Source of the DNA: Deroplatys truncata
Taxonomy: Eukaryota; Arthropoda; Insecta; Mantodea; Mantidae
NCBI GenBank assembly: GCA_030765065.1
Contig: CM060985.1
Coordinates: 7,812,001 to 7,876,000 of the forward strand
Direction: 5' to 3'
Length of the DNA stretch: 64,000 bases
Under the pieces are notes generated by a model that did not search any database, was not told the origin of the DNA, and saw only the letters and a program-made list of their open reading frames with translations. The position numbers and the translations under genes are program-made. This document shows, piece after piece, positions 13,437-61,923 of this stretch. Every line of letters begins with the position of its first letter. Position 1 is the first letter of the stretch.

Positions 13437-14596
13437 TGAGGGCTGATCAACAAAGACTGAGAAAGACTGATTTTTTTTTCACAGGCGTTTATTACTCCAA
13501 TTCAATGTTTACATGATCTTTTTCAAAGTACTCCCCTCCTACTTCAATGCACTTTTTATAGCAACTCTGCCAGTCCTTGAACATGTGCTGCAGACCATTC
13601 TTTATCAGGTCCTTGAGAATCGCCTCACTTTTCTTGAGCACTGCTTCAGAGTTCTCAAATCGAATACCCCTAAGCTTTGCCTTTAGTGATGGGAATAAAA
13701 AAAAGTCACAGGGTGCAAGATCGGGGCTGTAAGGTGGATAAGGTACACAGGTAATGTTGAATCGAGCCAGAAACTGCATGACTTGATTTGCGACGTGAAG
13801 CCGTGCATTGTCATGATGAAGTCGCCACCCAGTCCAAGAAAGCTCCGATCGTTTCTTTGCAATGTGCTTCCTCAGTGTAGCCAATACTGACGTGTAGTAT
13901 GCTGCTGTAATAATCATGTGAGGGGGAACTGCATGCTGGTAAATCATTCCATTACAGTCAAAAAATGTGATCACCATCACTTTCCCTGCAGATGGGACAA
14001 CTTTTGCCTTTTTTGGTGTTGGAGAACCTGGCGATTTCCACACTGTGCTGGCTTGTTTTCCTTCAGGATCATAATGATGCAGCCATGATAATCGATTTAA
14101 AAAATGCATCCCCTCCATCAGCAAAGAGATGCAGCACCTCACGGCTTGTCTCCATTAACACAGCCTTTTGTTCGGGAGTCAACAGACGTGGCATCCAACG
14201 AGCACAAACTCGGGTCATATGGAGATGGTCGTGCATAATTGTCAACACACTGCCATATGAAATTCTCAACACTTCACTGAGGTTACATAATGTTATAAGC
14301 GATCCCCTCGGACAATCACAGCAGCTGTGTTGATGTTGACTTCAGTCACAGCAGAAGCCGAAACACCAGGCCCACCTTGCTTAACACTGACAAGTCAGCC
14401 TTCTTTGAAGTCCTTGAACCACCCAAACACTGAAGGACATTTATTACCTTTCTGATGGTGCCAATGCTCAGTATCAAAATAAGAAACAAACTTTCTAATT
14501 TGTGCTACCATGAGGACGACTATGGTATTCATGCTGAGCGGTATTCCTTTGCGACGTCACACAGAAAAGGACGAAGTAATACATTTTTTTTGTTGA
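13437..14596 (-). mobile_element. Mariner (DD34D) element, dead
   Basis: A mariner transposase is encoded on the minus strand. The left end (the 3' end of the gene) starts after TA at 13,435-13,436 with tgagggctgatcaacaaaga, a typical mariner terminus. The right end is not a good match to it. Near 14,585 only a short tcaacaaaa-like piece is seen before repeat A begins at about 14,597, so the 5' terminus is degraded or truncated. Confidence 0.75.
13492..14511 (-). pseudogene. Mariner transposase, frameshifted
   Basis: The likely start is the ATG at 14,511 (MVAQIRKFVSYFDTEHWHH, helix-turn-helix side). The middle part, ISYGSVLTIMHDHLHM then RVCARWMPRLLTPEQKAVL (14,069-14,272), is in a different frame from the catalytic part. 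A frameshift near 14,085 separates FADGGDAFFKS from LSWLHHYDPEGKQAS. The catalytic core (13,492-14,142, 216 codons) is open and has all three aspartates: VITFFDCNG, LHHDNARLHVA and SPDLAPCDFFLFP. There are 34 residues between the second and third, as in classical DD34D mariners. The C-terminus ends in CIEVGGEYFEKD, also canonical. The protein would be a cut-and-paste transposase acting at TA sites, but the frameshift and upstream stops make this copy non-functional. Confidence 0.85.
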
Positions 14597-31907: not shown

Positions 31908-33254
31908 CTTACCTTATAGTGTCCTCAAGCCCTGTATAATATAATACACAGGAATGTGGAAAATAACACATATTCTGTTAATACAGTGATGACAGGTGAA
32001 CATAACATGATGATTCATGCAAAAAAGTTGTGACTCTGCCCTTACCTTTCAAGGTCTTCAAGCCCTGATAAAATATAAACAGAGGAATCTGTAACAAAAC
32101 AATGATGTTTTCTTAGTATAGTCATGATGATACAGTGGTGATACAGACAGAAAATGGTGACTCTTCTCTTACTTCTCAAAGACTTGATGCCCTGGTGAGA
32201 AATACCTGCAAAGGAATCTGTAACAAAACACAAGTATTCTTCAGTCGGATTAGCTTCAGAGGATGGGAACAACTGTTTCCCGAAACATGTTAAGTGGACA
32301 AATATTCTATTAGTATAGTGATGATGATACAGTGGTGATGCATTCAAGTAAGTGGTGACACTTCTCTTACCTTTCAAGGACTTCACGCCTCTGTGAGAAA
32401 CCCCTCAGAGGAACTTGTGACAATACACATATATTGTCTTAATACAGTGATGATGATACAAGTAACTGGTGACCCTTTTCTTACCTTTCAAGGACTTCAC
32501 GCCTCTGTGAGAAACCCCTCAGAGGAACTTGTAACAATACACATACATTGTCTTAATACAGTGATGATGATACAAGTAACTCGTGACCCTTTTCTTACCT
32601 TTCAAGGACTTCACACCTCTGTGAGAAACCCCTCAGAGGAACTTGTAACAATACACAGATATTGTCTTAATACAGTGATGATGATACAAGTAACTGATGA
32701 CTCTTCTGTTGCCTTTCAAGGACTTCACGCCTCTGTGAGAAACCCCTCAGAGGAACTTGTAACAATACACAGATATTGTCTTAATACAGTGATGATGATA
32801 CAAGTAACTGGTGACCCTTTTCTTACCTTTCAAGGACTTCACGCCTCTGTGAGAAACCCCTCAGAGGAACTTGTAACAATACACATACATTGTCTTAATA
32901 CAGTGATGATGATACAAGTAACTGGTGACCCTTTTCTTACCTTTCAAGGACTTCACGCCTCTGTGAGAAACCCCTCAGAGGAACTTGTAACAATACACAT
33001 ATATTGTCTTAATACAGTGATGATGATACAAGTAACTGGTGACCCTTTTCTTACCTTTCAAGGACTTCACACCTCTGTGAGAAACCCCTCAGAGGAACTT
33101 GTAACAATACACAGATATTGTCTTAATACAGTGATGATGATACAAGTAACTGATGACTCTTCTGTTGCCTTTCAAGGACTTCACGCCTCTGTGAGAAATA
33201 CCTGCAGAGGAATCTGTAACAAAACACAGATATTCTCTTAATTCACTGATCACG

Positions 33255-37665: not shown

Positions 37666-37865
37666 GTTTATTATTTATTCATGATACAGCATGTTTTATT
37701 GTAATTGGTAACACTACATGTTTTGGTTTTCTTTTCTTTTATGCTATTGGCTGACACGTCCTATTTCCTATTATACTGGATCATTCAATAATTAGTGGCA
37801 ACATTTGAATTAACAAGAAAGAAAATATTTTTGGAACAGTCACACTGTTGCTGTGCTCAGAAGGA

Positions 37866-37910
37866 ATCTCCTTAAACGTGAGTAACCCGTCTCCACACTT
37901 CAGGGAGATT
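37866..37910. repeat. Left remnant of the 77-bp satellite / native transposase end
   Basis: The 45 bp starting gaatctccttaaacgtgagt and ending cacttcagggagat are identical to the satellite consensus but continue leftward into unique mariner 3' DNA. On the minus strand this reads LPEVWRRVTHV, stop, GDSF, stop, the expected end of a mariner transposase (usually GGDYF-like). Confidence 0.85.
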
Positions 37911-39954
37911 ATGTATGTATGTATGTATGTATGTATGTATGTATGTATGTATGTATGTATGTATGTATGTATGTATGTATGTATGTATGTATGTATGTAT
38001 GTATGTATGTATGTATGTATGTATGTATGTATGTATGTATGTATGTATGTATGTATGTATGTATGTATGTATGTATGTATGTATGTATGTATGTATGTAT
38101 GTATGTATGTATGTATGTATGTATGTATGTATGTATGTATGTATGTATGTATGTATGTATGTATGTATGTATGTATGTATGTATGTATGTATGTATGTAT
38201 GTATGTATGTATGTATGTATGTATGTATGTATGTATGTATGTATGTATGTATGTATGTATGTATGTATGTATGTATGTATGTATGTATGTATGTATGTAT
38301 GTATGTATGTATGTATGTATGTATGTATGTATGTATGTATGTATGTATGTATGTATGTATGTATGTATGTATGTATGTATGTATGTATGTATGTATGTAT
38401 GTATGTATGTATGTATGTATGTATGTATGTATGTATGTATGTATGTATGTATGTATGTATGTATGTATGTATGTATGTATGTATGTATGTATGTATGTAT
38501 GTATGTATGTATGTATGTATGTATGTATGTATGTATGTATGTATGTATGTATGTATGTATGTATGTATGTATGTATGTATGTATGTATGTATGTATGTAT
38601 GTATGTATGTATGTATGTATGTATGTATGTATGTATGTATGTATGTATGTATGTATGTATGTATGTATGTATGTATGTATGTATGTATGTATGTATGTAT
38701 GTATGTATGTATGTATGTATGTATGTATGTATGTATGTATGTATGTATGTATGTATGTATGTATGTATGTATGTATGTATGTATGTATGTATGTATGTAT
38801 GTATGTATGTATGTATGTATGTATGTATGTATGTATGTATGTATGTATGTATGTATGTATGTATGTATGTATGTATGTATGTATGTATGTATGTATGTAT
38901 GTATGTATGTATGTATGTATGTATGTATGTATGTATGTATGTATGTATGTATGTATGTATGTATGTATGTATGTATGTATGTATGTATGTATGTATGTAT
39001 GTATGTATGTATGTATGTATGTATGTATGTATGTATGTATGTATGTATGTATGTATGTATGTATGTATGTATGTATGTATGTATGTATGTATGTATGTAT
39101 GTATGTATGTATGTATGTATGTATGTATGTATGTATGTATGTATGTATGTATGTATGTATGTATGTATGTATGTATGTATGTATGTATGTATGTATGTAT
39201 GTATGTATGTATGTATGTATGTATGTATGTATGTATGTATGTATGTATGTATGTATGTATGTATGTATGTATGTATGTATGTATGTATGTATGTATGTAT
39301 GTATGTATGTATGTATGTATGTATGTATGTATGTATGTATGTATGTATGTATGTATGTATGTATGTATGTATGTATGTATGTATGTATGTATGTATGTAT
39401 GTATGTATGTATGTATGTATGTATGTATGTATGTATGTATGTATGTATGTATGTATGTATGTATGTATGTATGTATGTATGTATGTATGTATGTATGTAT
39501 GTATGTATGTATGTATGTATGTATGTATGTATGTATGTATGTATGTATGTATGTATGTATGTATGTATGTATGTATGTATGTATGTATGTATGTATGTAT
39601 GTATGTATGTATGTATGTATGTATGTATGTATGTATGTATGTATGTATGTATGTATGTATGTATGTATGTATGTATGTATGTATGTATGTATGTATGTAT
39701 GTATGTATGTATGTATGTATGTATGTATGTATGTATGTATGTATGTATGTATGTATGTATGTATGTATGTATGTATGTATGTATGTATGTATGTATGTAT
39801 GTATGTATGTATGTATGTATGTATGTATGTATGTATGTATGTATGTATGTATGTATGTATGTATGTATGTATGTATGTATGTATGTATGTATGTATGTAT
39901 GTATGTATGTATGTATGTATGTATGTATGTATGTATGTATGTATGTATGTATGT
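37911..39954. repeat. Perfect (ATGT)n microsatellite, about 511 copies
   Basis: 2,044 bp of ATGT without a single interruption. The three very long open frames here (707-738 codons on +, 712 on -) are translated repeat and not genes. It is followed by about 40 bp of variant units (CTGT, CCGT) on the LINE side, so interruptions are confined to one end. Confidence 0.98.
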
Positions 39955-40071
39955 CTGTCTGTATGTCCGTCCGTCCGTATGTATGTATGTATGTATGTAT
40001 TTATTCTGCAATTGGGTACTTCCCGGTGGCAGAATTAAACCGTACAAAATTTACATCACCATGACTAGCTT

Positions 40072-40074
<3 letters not shown>
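39955..40074 (-). mobile_element. Imperfect repeat and probable LINE 3' terminus
   Basis: 39,955-39,997 is degenerate ATGT/CTGT/CCGT. Then comes about 75 bp of unique sequence that reads on the minus strand toward acccaattgcagaataaat and then (ACAT)n. Non-LTR elements often end in a short simple-repeat tail, so I infer that the microsatellite grew from the tail of the LINE at 40,555-41,890. Confidence 0.55.

Positions 40075-40075
<1 letters not shown>

Positions 40076-40145
<70 letters not shown>
40076..40145. repeat. (TAA)n microsatellite
   Basis: About 22 uninterrupted TAA units between the LINE 3' untranslated region and its terminal 75 bp. Confidence 0.95.
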
Positions 40146-40224
40146 CAAGACTAACAATACAAAATGATTAATTTTAAATGTTAACAAAGCTTTTAAAATC
40201 CCTAATTACTGAACCATTTATAGT

Positions 40225-40470
40225 TTACTTAACTATTCACAATTACTTAAGTATTCACCATTTACTTCACTATTCACAATTTACTTAACTATTCACAATT
40301 TACTTAACTATTCACAATTACTTAACTATTCACCATTTACTTCACTATTCACAATTTACTTAACTATTCACAATTTACTTAACTATTCTCAATTTACTTA
40401 ACTATCTACAAAGTACTTAACAATTTACAAAGTACGTAACTATTTTCGAGGTACTTAACTATTTACCATT
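40225..40470. repeat. 19-bp tandem repeat in LINE 3' untranslated region
   Basis: About a dozen imperfect copies of acttaactattcacaattt, decaying toward the LINE coding end (acttaacaatttacaaagt forms). It lies just after the LINE stop codon in transcript order. Confidence 0.85.
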
Positions 40471-40554
40471 GGTCCTTATATTTAGTTACCAGTATTTTCA
40501 ACCTGGTAGTGTCAACTTTAATAGTATAGTTTGTGAAATGAGTACACTAGTTAA

Positions 40555-41946
40555 TTAACCAACATTTATTCTGCTAATATTATTTCTGAACTGCTTTAAG
40601 GTCAGAGGACAGCCCTGAAAGCCTGCTACAGGCAATTCATTCCATTCCTCAATGGTTCTATTAACAAAAGAAAATTTTCCCACGTCGGTTCTGCACTTTC
40701 TACCCCTAATTTTAAACAGATGATCGTTTCGACCGTAGTGTGCTGGATTCTCTAACCTTTCTCTAACATCCGCCCAAGCATTTGAACCAGTATAAGCTTT
40801 AAATAACGCAACTAATCTATGTTTTTTACGCCTAACTTTTAGCGGTTCCCATTCATTCTCTTCACCTTTTGTAAACCCAAAATCTTTACCTCTCCTTATG
40901 AATTTTATAGCCCTTCTCTGTACTTTTTCTAAGGAATCAATCTGATTGACTCTGTATGGGTCCCAACATGCTACTCCATATTCCATAACCGGCCGCACTA
41001 AAGATTTGTAGGCTAGTTCCCTGGTCTTTGCGCTCCCCTTTTTCAGTATTCTCATTACGAAATGCAATGCTTTCCACGCTTTCCTAGATGTACTATCTAT
41101 CTGTTCCCCCCATCCAGCATTACTTGACAAGCACACTCCCAAATATTTGCAGCTGTCCACCTGTGGAATTGGTTCCCCGCCCATTTGATAGTTATGTATA
41201 ATCTTCCCCTTAGTTCTGCTAAAAACAATGGATTTACTTTTCCCAGCATTAATTGTCATTTTGTTTGCTTCGGCCCACCACCTGATTTCATTTAGGTCGT
41301 CCTGAAGAGCAGTCTCATGCATGGAATTCCTAATCTTATTGTAAATAATACAATCGTCTGCGAACAGTCTTAACTGGCATTTAATGTTTATATGGATATC
41401 ATTAACAAAGATAAGAAACAGTAACGGGCCCAGTACCGAGCCTTGGGGCACGCCCGAACTTACGGTCCCCCCTTCTGACAGTTCTCTACCTACTCTTATT
41501 CTTTGCGTCCTCCCTTTCAAAAATTGTTCTACCCACAATACAACGCGATTATCAAGTCCCGCATTTGCTAGTTTCCGGATGAGTAAACTATGTGGCACTA
41601 CGTCAAAAGCTTTAGAAAAATCTATCACCACTGCATCAGTCCTTCCCCCTGCATCCACCTCATCTGCCAAATCTTGAATTAATGAAGTTGTTTGACTTTC
41701 ACATGAATACCCGGATCTAAATCCATGTTGCGCTTTGTTGAACCACTGTTTGTTTTCTAAATCCTCGCGTATGTATTCTGCAATTAGATGCTCCATTACT
41801 TTACACACTACCGACGTTAGGCTAACAGGCCGATAATTATTTATTTCTGTTTTATTACCCCCTTTGTATATTGGAACTACAATGAGGATGCCATCCACAG
41901 CATCTTGTTGCACTAATCTCCTTAAACGTGAGTAACCCGTCTCCAC
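40555..41946 (-). CDS. 5'-truncated LINE reverse transcriptase, open frame fused to satellite
   Basis: 463 codons without a stop. Residues 1 to about 19 (METGYSRLRRLVQQDAVDG) are encoded by the 77-bp satellite and are not LINE. True LINE coding starts near ILIVVPIYKGGNKTEINNYR. RT blocks in order: NYRPVSLTSVVCK (about 37), NKAQHGFRSGYSCE (about 70), VVIDFSKAFDVVPH (first catalytic D, about 107), SSGVPQGSVLGPLLFLIF (about 163), RLFADDCIIYN (catalytic DD, about 193), NAGKSKSIVFSR and KYLGVCLSSNAGWGEQI (thumb). Then comes the C-terminal RYGV..WDPY-type region, ending EWNELPVAGFQGCPLTLKQF, the normal end of Jockey/CR1-like proteins. The endonuclease is missing, as expected for 5' truncation. All catalytic residues are intact, so the insertion is young, but it cannot move on its own. 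Confidence 0.85.
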   Translation of the reverse strand: METGYSRLRRLVQQDAVDGILIVVPIYKGGNKTEINNYRPVSLTSVVCKVMEHLIAEYIREDLENKQWFNKAQHGFRSGYSCESQTTSLIQDLADEVDAGGRTDAVVIDFSKAFDVVPHSLLIRKLANAGLDNRVVLWVEQFLKGRTQRIRVGRELSEGGTVSSGVPQGSVLGPLLFLIFVNDIHINIKCQLRLFADDCIIYNKIRNSMHETALQDDLNEIRWWAEANKMTINAGKSKSIVFSRTKGKIIHNYQMGGEPIPQVDSCKYLGVCLSSNAGWGEQIDSTSRKAWKALHFVMRILKKGSAKTRELAYKSLVRPVMEYGVACWDPYRVNQIDSLEKVQRRAIKFIRRGKDFGFTKGEENEWEPLKVRRKKHRLVALFKAYTGSNAWADVRERLENPAHYGRNDHLFKIRGRKCRTDVGKFSFVNRTIEEWNELPVAGFQGCPLTLKQFRNNISRINVG

Positions 41947-44900
41947 ACTTCAGGTAGATGACTGATGCCATCCACAGCATCTTGTTGCACTAATCTCCTT
42001 AAACATGAATAACCCGTCTCCACACTTCAGGGAGATGACTGATGCCATCCACAGCATCTTGTTGCACTAATCTCCTTAAACATGAATAACCAGTCTCCAC
42101 ACTTCAGAGAGATGACTGATGCCATCCACAGCATCTTGTTGCACTAATCTCCTTAAACATGAATAACCCGTCTCCACACTTCAGGGAGATGACTGATGCC
42201 ATCCACAGCATCTTGTTGCACTAATCTCCTTAAACATGTATAGCCCGTCTCCACACTTCAGGGAGATGACTGAGACCATCCACAGCATCTTGTTGCACTA
42301 ATCTCTTTAAACGTGAGTAACCCATCTCCACACTTCAGGGAGATGACTGATGCCATGTACAGCATCTTGTTGCACTAATCTCCTTAAACGTGAGTAACCC
42401 ATCTCCACACTTCAGGGAGATGACTGATGCCATCCACAGCATCTTGTTGCATTAATCTCCTTAAACATGAGTAACCCATCTCCACACTTCAAGGAGATGA
42501 CTGATGCCATCCACAGCATCTTGTTGCACTAATCTCCTTAAACATGAGTAACCAGTCTCCACACTTCACGGAGATGACTGATGCCATCCACAGCATCTTG
42601 TTGCACTAATCTTCTTAAACATGAGTAACCAGTCTCCACACTTCACGGAGATGACTGATGCCATCCACAGCATCTTGTTGCACTAATCTCCTTAAACATG
42701 AATAACCCGTCTCCACACTTCAGGGAGATGACTGATGCCATCCACAGCATCTTGTTGCACTATTCTCCTTAAACGTGAGTAACCCGTCTCCACACTTCAG
42801 GAAGATGACTGATGCCATCCACAGCATCTTGTTGCACTATTCTCCTTAAACGTGAGTAACCCGTCTCCACACTTCAGGAAGATGACTGATGCCATCCACA
42901 GCATCTTGTTGCACTATTCTCCTTAAACGTGAGTAACCCGTCTCCACACTTCAGGGAGATGACTGATGCCATCCACAGCATCTTGTTGCACTAATCTCCT
43001 TAAACGTGAGTAACCCGTCTCCACACTTCAGGGAGATGACTGATGCCATCCACAGCATCTTGTTGCACTATTCTCCTTAAACGTGAGTAACCAGTCTCCA
43101 CACTTCAGGGAGATGACTGATGCCATCCACAGCATCTTGTTGCACTAATCTCCTTAAACGTGAGTAACCCGTCTCCACACTTCAGGGAGATGACTGATGC
43201 TATCCACAGCATCTTGTTGCACTATTCTCCTTAAACGTGAGTAACCCGTCTCCACACTTAAGGAAGATGACTGATGCCATCCACAGCATCTTGTTGCACT
43301 ATTCTCCTTAAACGTGAGTAACCCGTCTCCACACTTCAGGGAGATGACTGATGCCATCCACAGCATCTTGTTGCACTAATCTCCTTAAACGTGAGTAACC
43401 CGTCTCCACACTTCAGGGAGATGACTGATGCCATCCACAGCATCTTGTTGCACTATTCTCCTTAAACGTGAGTAACCAGTCTCCACACTTCAGGGAGATG
43501 ACTGATGCCATCCACAGCATCTTGTTGCACTATTGTCCTTAAACGTGAGTAACCTATCTCCACACTTCAGGGAGATGACTGATGTCATCCACAGCATCTT
43601 GTTGCTCTAATCTCCTTAAACGTGAGTAACCAGTCTCCACACTTCAGGGAGATGACTGATGCCGTCCACAGCATCTTATTGCACTAATCTCCTTAAACAT
43701 GAGTAACCAGTCTCCACACTTCAGGGAGATGACTGATGCCATCCACAGCATCTTGTTCCACTAATCTCCTTAAACATGTATAACCCGTCTCCACACTTCA
43801 GGGAGATGACTGATGCCATCCACAGCATCTTGTTCCACTAATCTCCTTAAACATGTATAACCCGTCTCCACACTTCAGGGAGATGACTGATGCCATCCAC
43901 AGCATCTTGTGCACTAATCTCCTTAAACATGAGTAACCCGTCTCCACACTTCAGGAAGATGACTGATGCCATCCACAGCATCTTGTTGCACTAATCTCCT
44001 TAAACGTGAGTAACTAGTCTCCACACTTCAGGGAGATGAGGATGCCATCCACAGCATCTTGTTGCACTAATCTCCTTATACATGAATAACCCATCTCCAC
44101 ACTTCAGGGAGATGACTGATGCCATCCACAGCATCTTGTTGCACTAATCTCCTTAAACATGAGTCACCCGTCTCCACACTTCAGGGAGATGACTGATGCC
44201 ATCCAAAGCATCTTGTTGCACTATTCTCCTTAAACATGAGTAACCCGTCTCCACACTTCAGGGAGATGACTGATGCCATCCACAGCATCTTGTTGCACTA
44301 ATCTCCTTAAACGTGAGTAACCAGTCTCCACACTTCAGGGAGATGACTGATGCCATCCACAGCATCTTGTTGCACTAATCTCCTTAAACGTGAGTAACCT
44401 GTCTCCACACTTCAGGGAGATGACTGATGCCATCCACAGCATCTTGTTGCACTATTCTCCTTAAACATGAGTAACCAACACTTCAGGGAGATGACTGATG
44501 CCATCCACAGCATCTTGTTGCACTAATCTCCTTAAACGTGAGTAACCTGTCTCCACTCTTCAGGGAGATGACTGATGCCATCTACAGCATCTTGTTGCAC
44601 TAATCTCCTTAAACGTGAGTAACCTGTCTCCACTCTTCAGGGAGATGACTGATGCCATCCACAGCATCTTGTTGCACTAATCTCCTTATACATGAATAAC
44701 CCGTCTCCACACTTCAGGGAGATGACTGATGCCATCCACAGCATCTTGTTGCACTAATCTCCTTAAACGTGAGTAACCTGTCTCCACTCTTCAGGGAGAT
44801 GACTGATGCCATCCACAGCATCTTGTTGCACTATTCTCCTTAAACATGAACAACCCGTCTCCACACTTCAGAGAGATGACTGATGCCATCCACAGCATCT

Positions 44901-45454
44901 TGTTGCACTAATCTCCTTAAACGTGAGTAACCTGTCTCCACTCTTCAGGGAGATGACTGATGCCATCCACAGCATCTTGTTGTACTAATCTCCTTAAACG
45001 TGAGTAACCCATCTCCACACTTCAGGGAGATGACTGATGCCATCTACAGCATCTTGTTGCACTAATCTCCTTAAACGTGAATAACCCATCTCCACACTTC
45101 AGGGAGATGACTGATGCCATCCACAGCATCTTGTTGTACTAATCTCCTTAAACGTGAGTAACCCATCTCCACACTTCAGGGAGATGACTGATGCCATCTA
45201 CAGCATCTTGTTGCACTAATCTCCTTAAACGTGAATAACCCATCTCCACACTTCAGGGAGATGACTGATGCCATCCACAGCATCTTGTTTCACTAATCTC
45301 CTTAAACATGAATAACTCGTCTCCACACTTCAGGGAGATGACTGATGCCATCCACAGCATCTTGTTGCACTAATCTCCTTAAACGTGAGTAACCCGTCTC
45401 CACACTTCAGGGAGATGAAGGATGCCATCCACAGCATCTTGTTGCACTAATCTT
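41887..45454. repeat. 77-bp satellite array, about 46 copies, derived from mariner transposase 3' end
   Basis: The unit begins aatctccttaaacgtgagta and ends cagcatcttgttgcact. On the minus strand each unit reads LVQQDAVDGI(S/L)HLPEVWRR, then VTHV, stop, GD. The length 77 is not a multiple of 3, so the frame shifts between units and no long frame forms. Variants (cgtgag, catgaa, catgta; ctaatc or ctattc; cacact or cactct) cluster among neighbours. A 154-bp dimer is repeated at about 44,975-45,282. The last right-hand unit (45,418) has gatgaaggatgcc, the form that encodes the native ILHLPE. Confidence 0.95.
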
Positions 45455-46800
45455 CGAACAGACTACTCTACTGCTGCTACAATTGCCTATCTGGCTCTAA
45501 AGCGAACTCCTCTAAGTGGTAATTTCATTTTTGCAAAAAGGTCAAAATCACATGGGCTCATATCTGGGGAGTATGGAGGATGCTCCAGAATTTCCCAGTT
45601 CCATCTGCGAAATAAATTAACCGCAGGACCAGCTATGTGAGAGCGAGCACCATCATGGACATTTGGACATTTATGACACACAGCTGGTCGTAAATGGTGT
45701 TCCAGAAAGTAACTGTAATATTGTGGCATATTATTAATTTTATTGTCATTGCCAGATGCACTGTTGTGCTGTATTGTTGCTACCATTATTGTGTCTGCTT
45801 AGTTATACTTTGTCTTAAAGGTCTTTCCTTTCGGCACGGATCATGCAAAAGAGAAAGGCCTGTTTGAAACTGTCTAGTATGATGTCAGCCCTGTCTGGCT
45901 TTGGCTGGACACGGTTGGTGGAGGTAAGATAGTGTTACTCCAGTGGAAGTGGTCATTGGAGCCAGTCGTATATGTGGCTAGTCTATGCTTTCATGGCATC
46001 TGCCTCCATCCTGTTTCCTTTATTCATTATGTAGAGTTGCCAAATGTTTTGTGAATAAATCCCAGGTAATGTGTGTTATGTAATATAAAACCCACACTTT
46101 CCCCTTAAATCTACACACCAAGGTCCCAGACTCTTTGCTGCCAGCAAGTTGCGTCGCGCCATGTGCTTGTTGAGGTGACCTCAATTAATAATTTTCTAGT
46201 AACCTTTTTTGCCTTCACCCCAACTTGTAACATTATTCACCATTCACACAATTTCCCACAGGAACTGAATGACTGACAAGGACACCATCAAAATCATCAG
46301 CAACTATGAACATGACTTTAAGTGGACCCTGCTCTTGCTGATACTTTTTTGACCGTGGGGAATCATTGTGCGTCACACATTTGATTGTCTCTTTAGTTTT
46401 TGTTGGTAGCATCTAAAGTTATGAAGGAAATGCTTGCCTTCATGTGCAATGTTGCCACATGTTCTCTTCTTCAAGATTGTGTGGAACTGATTGAGTGCAG
46501 ATTTTCCTCATCTGTATAACTTCTTCTTGTGATCACACCTGGAGCAATTCCAACTTCCCTTACTAGTTCAATACAAGTCCAACAATGGTGTTCTTCCAGC
46601 ATGCTCTAACAGTGTCCACATGTACTTGCTGTCTGCCAGCTCCACATTTCCCTACCTCTGCATGTGCCCACCTACCGCAAGCTTCCAGTAATGCTGCATG
46701 GCATTGTTGAGCATTCTTGCCTCTTGTAACTTGAATTTTAATGAAGCATCTTTGTTCTTATTTATTGAACATTTTACAGCACAACAGTCAACAAATTAAA
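45455..46800 (-). pseudogene. Mariner-like transposase, interrupted
   Basis: The N-terminal helix-turn-helix piece IKIQVTRGKNAQQCHAALLE is near 46,700. The first catalytic region SPRSKKYQQEQGPLKVMFIV then ADDFDGVLVSHSVPVGN is at about 46,250-46,360. About 490 bp of foreign DNA (roughly 45,735-46,225) separates it from the second half: PQYYSYFLEHHLRPA, HDGARSHIAG (second D) and SPDMSPCDFDLFAK (third D, 34 residues later), in an open segment at 45,487-45,786. After a stop the frame continues as AIVAAVE-stop-SVRRLVQQDAVDG and then ILHLPEVWRRVTHV at the first satellite monomer. The true C-terminus (LPEVWRRVTHV-stop-GDSF) survives at 37,866-37,911. The gene was dead before the satellite expanded, since every monomer carries the same TAA. 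Confidence 0.8.
45735..46225. other. Foreign DNA inside the mariner transposase
   Basis: About 490 bp lies between the VPVGNCVNGE part and the QYYSYFLEHH part, which are adjacent in related transposases. The insert includes agccctgtctggctttggct and ttgctgccagcaagttgcgt. I find no coding frame, tail, terminal repeats or target duplication, so the insertion type is not identified. Confidence 0.55.
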
Positions 46801-46959
46801 CTCACTACAAATATCTTATAAATAAGATTACTGTCTTCAAACTCACAGATAACACCATCAGATGCTGTTCTTACTCATTGTTATCAGTTTGCATCATTTA
46901 CCACTAATAGTGCCACATACAAACATTGTTGCCACTAATTACTGAATGATCCATGTATA

Positions 46960-60083: not shown

Positions 60084-61923
60084 ATGGACTACCATACCTT
60101 CTATGAATCAACAAACTTAGTTATTTATAGGGAATGTCTAAAAAAGCAGTATGCCCAAGAACTGATTAATCTAAAGAGACAACAATTTAATGAAAAAATA
60201 ATAAAATCAAATAATAAGGCAAATACGATATGGGGAATTGTAAAAGAACATCACGTAAACAATAAGACATTTGAAAACATAACCTTAGAAGAAAACGCGC
60301 AAGTAGTAAAAAATCCTAAAGATGTTTGCCAGATCTTCAATAATTACTTTTTAAAAATGGGAATCGATAAAATCAGTCACATTAGTGATACCACTAAGGG
60401 GACAAATGGACTACTATCTTCCATTTATCTAAAAGGAACCACTAAAACAGAATTAGAAAAAATAATAAACGAACTAAATAATAACATGTCGACAGGATGG
60501 GATGAAATATCCACAAAACACTAAAACATTGTAAATATGCCTTACCAGATGTACTGGAGCACCTGATAAATACATTAATAATTGAGGAATTTTTCCCCGA
60601 TTGTCTAAAAATAAGCATAATTCGGCCAATATTAAAAAAAGGCAATAAAACAAAAGTAGAAAATTATAGGCCAATCTCCTTAACTTCTGTCTTTGCTAAA
60701 GTTATCGAAAAAGTGCTAAATAATAGATTACTGAACTTTCTAAATAAATTTAATATACTAAGTAAATCCCAACATGGTTTCAGAAAAGATCACTCCACAA
60801 CCACTGCTATAGCAGAGCTATATCATACTATAGTCCAAGGGCTTGAAAATGACGAGAAGATCACAGGGATATTCCTTGACTTATCTAAAGCGTTCGACAG
60901 TGTATCGCATGTAATGCTGATGAATAAACTGCAGAAATATGGCATAAGAGGAAAATTTCACACAATATTAAGATCGTACCTTGAAAACAGGAAACAATGT
61001 ACAGTAGTCAGAACCAAGAGTAAACACACAATAGAATCTATCACATCCGATTACGGAAACGTCAAAGCGGGAGTACCTCAAAAATCTGTCCTAGGGCCAA
61101 TATTATTTTTACTTTATATAAATGATCTTCCAATAACTACACACTCCAAAACAGTGACGTATGCAGATGACACCTCATTAATATTTGGACTCAATCAAAC
61201 GAAATGGAGAAAATAATAACTACAGAAACGCAAATTATTTACAATTATCTTACAAACAATAGCCTGAAAGTTAATCTTCAAAAAACAAAAACAGTAATGT
61301 TCCAACACCGCAATAACAGGTATAGTAGTAAAAGTCCTATAAATGTAACGCTAAATGGTGAACCTATCCAGCAATTAGATAAAATAAAATTCTTAGGGGT
61401 AAATATCGATGAAAAACTAAACCTTTAGACACCATATTCACTACATATGTAAGAAGATAAGTGCACATCTCTACTTAATAAGGAACCTAGCAAATTACTT
61501 AAATTCTGAACATCTGAAATTGACCTACTATGGAATAATACATCCACATCTACAATATGCAGTTGACGTTTGGGCCAGTTCTTGTATAACCAACATGAAC
61601 AGATTACTAGTTTTACAGAAGAAATGTTTAAGATGTATATATATAATGTAAATAGAAGAGAATCATGTAGAAATGTCTTTATAGATAACAAAATTCTAAC
61701 GGTAGTATATTTATATGTTTTTAAAGTAGTCATGTTTGTAGTTAGTAAAGACGGAGCAGGTAACTTAAATAAGCACTATCATAACCACGAAACAAGGTCA
61801 CAAAACAATTACCATAGAATAACTGTGAATAACAAGTCAACTGATAAAGATCCCTTAATAATGGGAAAAATACTGTTCAATAAATTACCGATTTCAGTAA
61901 AAAAAAAAAGCGAAACTGTTTAG
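60084..61923 (+). pseudogene. LINE reverse transcriptase and C-terminal region, frameshifted
   Basis: The connector (60,084-60,524) ends [14 protein letters not shown], the usual S.G.D.I..K block before RT. Then come [57 protein letters not shown] and [19 protein letters not shown] (first catalytic D). [20 protein letters not shown] has K where most members have G after [13 protein letters not shown] (catalytic DD) follows. The thumb NLQKTKTVMFQHRNN and DKIKFLGVNIDEKLNL is one frame over (61,204-61,428). The C-terminal NHETRSQNNYHR and GKILFNKLPISVK blocks are in a further frame. A frameshift between FGLNQ and MEKIITTE and stops after NIDEKLNL prevent a full-length product. Confidence 0.85.

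Follow-up and report, generated by a model that had tools for sequence, protein, structure and literature searches.

Features of the locus

The window, which means the whole stretch of 64,000 nucleotides that was analysed, contains a 77-bp tandem array, the remains of a mariner transposase gene and a LINE retrotransposon, all lying between two terminal inverted repeats (TIRs). The features are as follows.

37777..37803, plus strand: 3' TIR of the mariner (27 nt, 96% complementarity with 46927-46953)
37804..37864, minus strand: transposase gene, native 3' end, followed by its 3' flank, ..SF-stop-AQQQCD (by translation; the relative P0010 continues YFCALQQCD there)
37865..37909, minus strand: the 47th and last monomer, 3' part only, split from the array by the LINE (by blastn)
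37910..41883, minus strand: LINE retrotransposon inserted in the last monomer (by RVT_1, Tandem Repeats Finder, ORF and flanks; array-side boundary exact to about 2 bases)
41887..45453, minus strand: 77-bp tandem array from the transposase C-terminus, 46 full units and 1 unit truncated at the LINE
45442..45720, minus strand: C-terminal half of the mariner transposase, YYSYFLEHHLRPA...PPYSPDMSPCDFDLFAKM..., continuing the frame of the first unit and carrying two stops near the array (by tblastn and PDB)
45721..46235, no strand: insert of about 0.5 kb splitting the transposase gene (bounded by tblastn matches, which extend to 46236 on one side and begin at 45720 on the other)
46236..46802, minus strand: N-terminal half of the mariner transposase, with stops and deletions (by tblastn)
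46927..46953, minus strand: 5' TIR of the mariner (27 nt, one mismatch to 37777-37803)

Short TIRs flanking the gene are a mariner feature, and the pair found here (27 nt, 96%) brackets the gene remains, the array and the LINE, which places the array within a single mariner element. Among further matches to the TIR within the window none was convincing, each of the 6 carrying the 7 errors allowed. The gene is decayed, with stops and gaps in the N-terminal half and with the gap between 46236 and 45720; residues 3-235 of the relative P0004 match 46802-46239 by tblastn (E 5e-15), and the matches of P0001 and P0014 extend to 46236. No second copy of the 0.5-kb insert at 45721-46235 was found within the window. 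Measured between the outer TIR edges, and leaving aside the LINE, the 0.5-kb insert and the extra units, the pieces amount to 718+279+77+88 = 1162 bp, which is close to the length of a mariner with deletions, the typical mariner being about 1.3 kb long. A further mariner transposase ORF, less decayed (216 aa, Transposase_1, E 1.6e-12) is located at 13492-14142, and its C-terminus points to a different subfamily.

As to the TA target-site duplication of mariners, a TA dinucleotide is found outside both TIRs, but off by one base on one side and by two on the other (TAC-TGGATC and TACA-TGGATC). Since a TA thus stands within two bases of each TIR, the whole looks like one transposed unit, and the presence of both TIRs with one mismatch in 27 nt would also agree with an array that was formed in another mariner copy and was carried here by transposition of the array-bearing element, with transposase supplied in trans; the locus would then be a daughter and not the birthplace. 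The deletions, the stops and the 0.5-kb insert of the gene, as in an old resident copy, speak indirectly against this, and such an arrival is considered unlikely. Formation of the array within this old copy is the preferred reading.

The reverse-transcriptase ORF of the LINE (40555-41946, RVT_1, E=1.6e-33) has its first codons within the array. Tandem Repeats Finder recognized (TAA)23 at 40076-40144 in the LINE and, with 99% matches, a (TATG)n run of 2.1 kb at 37910-40004. Since this (TATG)n run occupies the 3' end of the LINE, it is probably the LINE's own expanded tail. The identity of the LINE to any match was at most 60% among the 120 listed of 2296. The flank on the array side ends with ...GGCATCCTCAT and the far side resumes with ATCTCCCTGAAG; joining them through a single AT yields GGCATCCTCATCTCCCTG, as present in unit u19. 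Thus the LINE was inserted in the last unit, the left piece and the array were once continuous, and the gap between them exists because the LINE sits in the last monomer. The insertion is therefore later than the existence of at least this last unit. The sequence-only reading had described the array and its junctions correctly, and had missed the TIRs and the LINE that splits the last monomer. Degenerate TCTG/TCCG units were also seen near the LINE-proximal end of the (TATG)n run.

Derivation of the 77-bp unit

The array was delimited by Tandem Repeats Finder at 41887-45453 with a period of 77, 46.4 copies and 94% matches (3.6 kb), in agreement with the about 46 units of 77 bp claimed earlier; a long head-to-tail array of similar units is one feature of satellite DNA, others being high abundance with spread over many loci or a heterochromatic location. 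When the minus strand was split into units, the spacings (n=46) were 77 in 43 cases, 76 in 2 and 71 in 1. The 46 full units were taken into the alignment and the 47th, cut by the insertion, was left out. Each unit is translated on the minus strand as QQDAVDGI(S/L)HLPEVWRRVTHV-stop-GD (in full QQDAVDGISHLPEVWRRVTHV-stop-GD, with variants among units), just as the sequence-only reading had it: GGCATC is followed by the codon AGT (Ser) in 44/46 full units, by CTT (Leu) in 1/46 and by a frameshifted codon in 1/46, and the TAA is kept in 46/46. The mean pairwise difference between units is 5.5% and the mean distance to the consensus is 3.3%. Four CpG columns account for 44 of the 118 substitutions from the monomer consensus, counts that ignore the shared ancestry of the units, and methylation decay may have contributed part of the divergence.

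A false repeat count by assembly was also considered, because the adjoining 2.1-kb near-perfect TATG run is hard to assemble. However, 35 of the 46 full units are distinct in sequence and their variants are structured, and long reads can span an array of 3.6 kb. The copy number may be off, and an array that is an assembly artefact is very unlikely. By blastn, the array and 37865-37909 account for all monomer copies found in the window; elsewhere, 8 rows of 11-16 bp were obtained (E 1.1-3.8). A 29-nt monomer core gave 0 exact matches in viral_contigs, a set without bearing on the host genome.

At the right end, the first unit is in frame with LRGVRFRAR-stop-AIVAAVE-stop-SVRRLVQQDAVDGILHLPEVW, and upstream of this junction (LRGVRFRAR-stop-AIVAAVE-stop-SVRRLVQQDAVDGILHLPEVWRRVTHV) lies the gene sequence HDGARSHIAGPAVNLFRRWNWEILEHPPYSPDMSPCDFDLFAKM, matching SETMAR and Mos1. 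The left junction reads VTHV-stop-GDSF-stop-AQQQCD, where the monomer piece at 37865-37909 (45 bp) has 100% identity to the query monomer. Because the residues after the stop (AQQQCD) agree in 5/6 positions with the ALQQCD that follows DYFC in P0010, a Periplaneta protein, the left flank is the native 3' end of the gene. Both junctions had been proposed earlier, with the array running in frame into a mariner transposase on the right and the last monomer running into GDSF-stop on the left, and both stand as proposed.

The transposase is homologous to Mos1/SETMAR, with 6 distinct PDB sequences matched (all SETMAR or Mos1, E 3.5e-11 to 2.8e-9), and the SETMAR and Mos1 structure sequences align through the C-terminus that forms the monomer. 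No Pfam match was obtained with the 118-aa C-terminal piece at E 0.001. Among 570 candidates, 69 protein relatives were retained at E<=0.001, many of them with Pfam PF01359; an organism name was attached to 28 of the 69, and 25 of these 28 were from Periplaneta americana. By tblastn, the gene adjoining the array was matched by all 9 relatives tried. Over the gene together with the first unit, the identity is 75% for P0003 (E 4e-50) and 64% for P0010 (E 5e-45), and both match single later units at E about 1e-9 to 1e-10; the more distant P0001 and P0006 give single-unit matches at E 0.004-0.009 only. From these results with 9 relatives, the match of the array to the transposase is not due to chance.

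P0003 and P0010 are the closest of the relatives extending to the C-terminal end; both are Periplaneta americana proteins, predicted from decayed or fused copies and not from intact elements. They have the shared C-terminus once, as VQQDAVDGIHRLPEVWRRILHVGGD and VQQDAVDGVRHLPEVWRRIHHVGGDYF, respectively, with P0003 ending in ...VQQDAVDGIHRLPEVWRRILHVGGDYV and P0010 in ...VQQDAVDGVRHLPEVWRRIHHVGGDYFCALQQCD, then CALQQCD. P0009, P0018 and P0041, which are also close, end within the monomer region or leave the reading frame there. Intact copies of this mariner without the monomer at the 3' end had been named by the sequence-only reading as evidence against its claim that the unit came from the 3' end of this gene; P0003 and P0010, each carrying it once, do not provide such evidence.

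The unit is thus homologous to part of a transposable element whose copy is identifiable as the parent, as is the case for tandem repeats derived from transposons. The sequence comparisons support the monomer as the 3' end of the mariner transposase gene, with the parent attached on both sides, and the enclosing TIRs strengthen this earlier claim. Capture of a pre-existing 77-bp satellite by a mariner has been proposed for the Xenopus MITE miDNA4, which is likewise a tandem array inside a Tc1/mariner element (PMC12628747, in the part available). Here the unit itself is transposase-coding and common to single-copy relatives and Mos1/SETMAR; with the monomer present in the C-termini of single-copy relatives and matched by tblastn, capture was rejected, its probability being practically negligible.

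Proposed formation and growth of the array

A single mechanism is proposed for the array and is held with high confidence as a whole. An old mariner copy would have lost its coding capacity first. In the last coding bases of its gene, two AGATT sites would have lain 77 bp apart, one over the Arg-Leu codons (AGA TTA) and the other in GGA GAT T.. near the stop, and an error of replication or repair would have joined the second AGATT to the first, giving one 77-bp tandem duplication mediated by microhomology. From two copies, unequal exchange or slippage would have led to about 47 units, with blocks of one to several units being copied, and the last unit would later have received the LINE. The array is presumably a neutral by-product of a dead transposon, with no function proposed for it.

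The single microhomology-mediated duplication is proposed because the ends of the duplication share 5 bases. The breakpoints, with the ancestral state read from this mariner copy and from the proteins of its relatives, are TTCGA-AGATT-AGTG before the first unit versus TAAGG-AGATT-CCTT after the last, with exactly 5 bases in common. As the background, breakpoint pairs 40-120 bp apart were taken from two stretches of the gene remains, the first of which includes 16 bases possibly from the insert, and shared runs of at least 5 bases were found in 0.67% of the 64,344 pairs. The 5-base overlap (about 1 in 150, a figure that serves as a guide since the pair was picked after looking) is suggestive of microhomology.

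The TAA is present in the 46 full units and also in the left piece beside the native end, which fits a gene that was already broken before amplification, as the sequence-only reading had concluded from the TAA common to all units. Alternatively, the TAA may have arisen early and then spread by exchange, in which case the end unit would necessarily have been included.

Block copying is suggested by the way in which the variants are distributed. Adjacent units resemble each other more than distant ones do, with a mean difference of 4.7% at lag 1 (1/3000 permutations as low) and 4.9% at lag 2 (17/3000); at lags 3-10 the similarity was not significant in the permutation test, so that block copying would be local or old. 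Repeated blocks were also found, u26-u28 being equal to u31-u33 and u03-u06 being arranged as AB-AB. Growth by exchange or slippage fits these data, because neighbours are more alike and blocks recur. The codon after GGCATC is CTT in the first unit and the corresponding bases are CTCAT in the truncated last unit, versus AGT in 44/46 full units; such deviating end units are expected if exchange homogenises the interior of the array. The variant form of the last unit is also present in the interior unit u19, so that the peculiarity of the end units is not clean. A hairpin of the monomer was tried separately as a driver of slippage and rejected, since DNA folding of one unit was no better than that of shuffles on both strands (z -0.09 and 0.24).

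A more far-reaching possibility is that the full birth of a satellite has been preserved here (the in-frame gene, the native stop with the 3' flank, the TIRs and, as determinant of the unit length, the 5-base microhomology) and that the unit has since spread elsewhere in the genome, with this locus as the founder; this is improbable.

Comparison with known tandem repeats

In the Bari1 clusters of Drosophila melanogaster, the repeat unit is the whole element, and the unit of Tetris in Drosophila virilis reportedly has an origin other than a C-terminal coding end. According to the parts of the sources available, Bari1 clusters resemble the present array as tandem repeats of a Tc1/mariner transposon, but they arose through an anomalous rolling-circle mechanism with reintegration (PMC9659126), and Tetris is likewise an emerging satellite traced to a DNA transposon, but one that is a foldback element (PMC4079207).

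That transposons give rise to tandem arrays is well established (PMC12628747; PMC9659126, as far as their available text goes). The nearest known case in the sources as available is CficCl-61-40 of Chenopodium, the most abundant satellite family there, with arrays of 8 to about 125 units; its start monomer is a fragment of about 40 bp of a CACTA tnp2 transposase, and its arrays are attached to transposase-coding DNA as here (PMC7320549). The differences are that the present array comes from a mariner with a 77-bp unit and not from a plant CACTA with a unit of about 40 bp, and that both gene ends and the TIRs are found around it, a feature not found described in the available part of PMC7320549. 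In Xenopus miDNA4, the array is also in a Tc1/mariner element and short direct repeats (microhomology) are invoked for its growth, but miDNA4 is a non-autonomous MITE whose repeat is thought to have been captured and, in the portions of the sources at hand, is not described as transposase-coding (PMC12628747, PMC9659126).

No satellite from a mariner C-terminus was found among the literature matches listed, which cover titles and the starts of abstracts, with subscription papers mostly outside this scope. The last 77 coding bases of a dead mariner, repeated about 47 times, are a clean example of a known route by which repeats are born from transposons. As judged from the partial sources, what sets this case apart from the Chenopodium arrays is the transposon family and the parent gene kept on both sides within inverted repeats. 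The presumed founding duplication can thereby be specified, as 77 bp between two AGATT sites, and can be tested against relatives.

One further array and one further retroelement remnant were recorded in the window. A second array at 32327-33250 has a 114-bp unit, 8.1 copies and 94% matches by Tandem Repeats Finder, and is open for 282 codons because 114 is a multiple of three; it gave five Pfam matches, with no stretch passing alone, and these look like repeat artefacts. A reverse-transcriptase fragment at 60713-61216 (RVT_1, E 1.5e-18) represents another retroelement piece.
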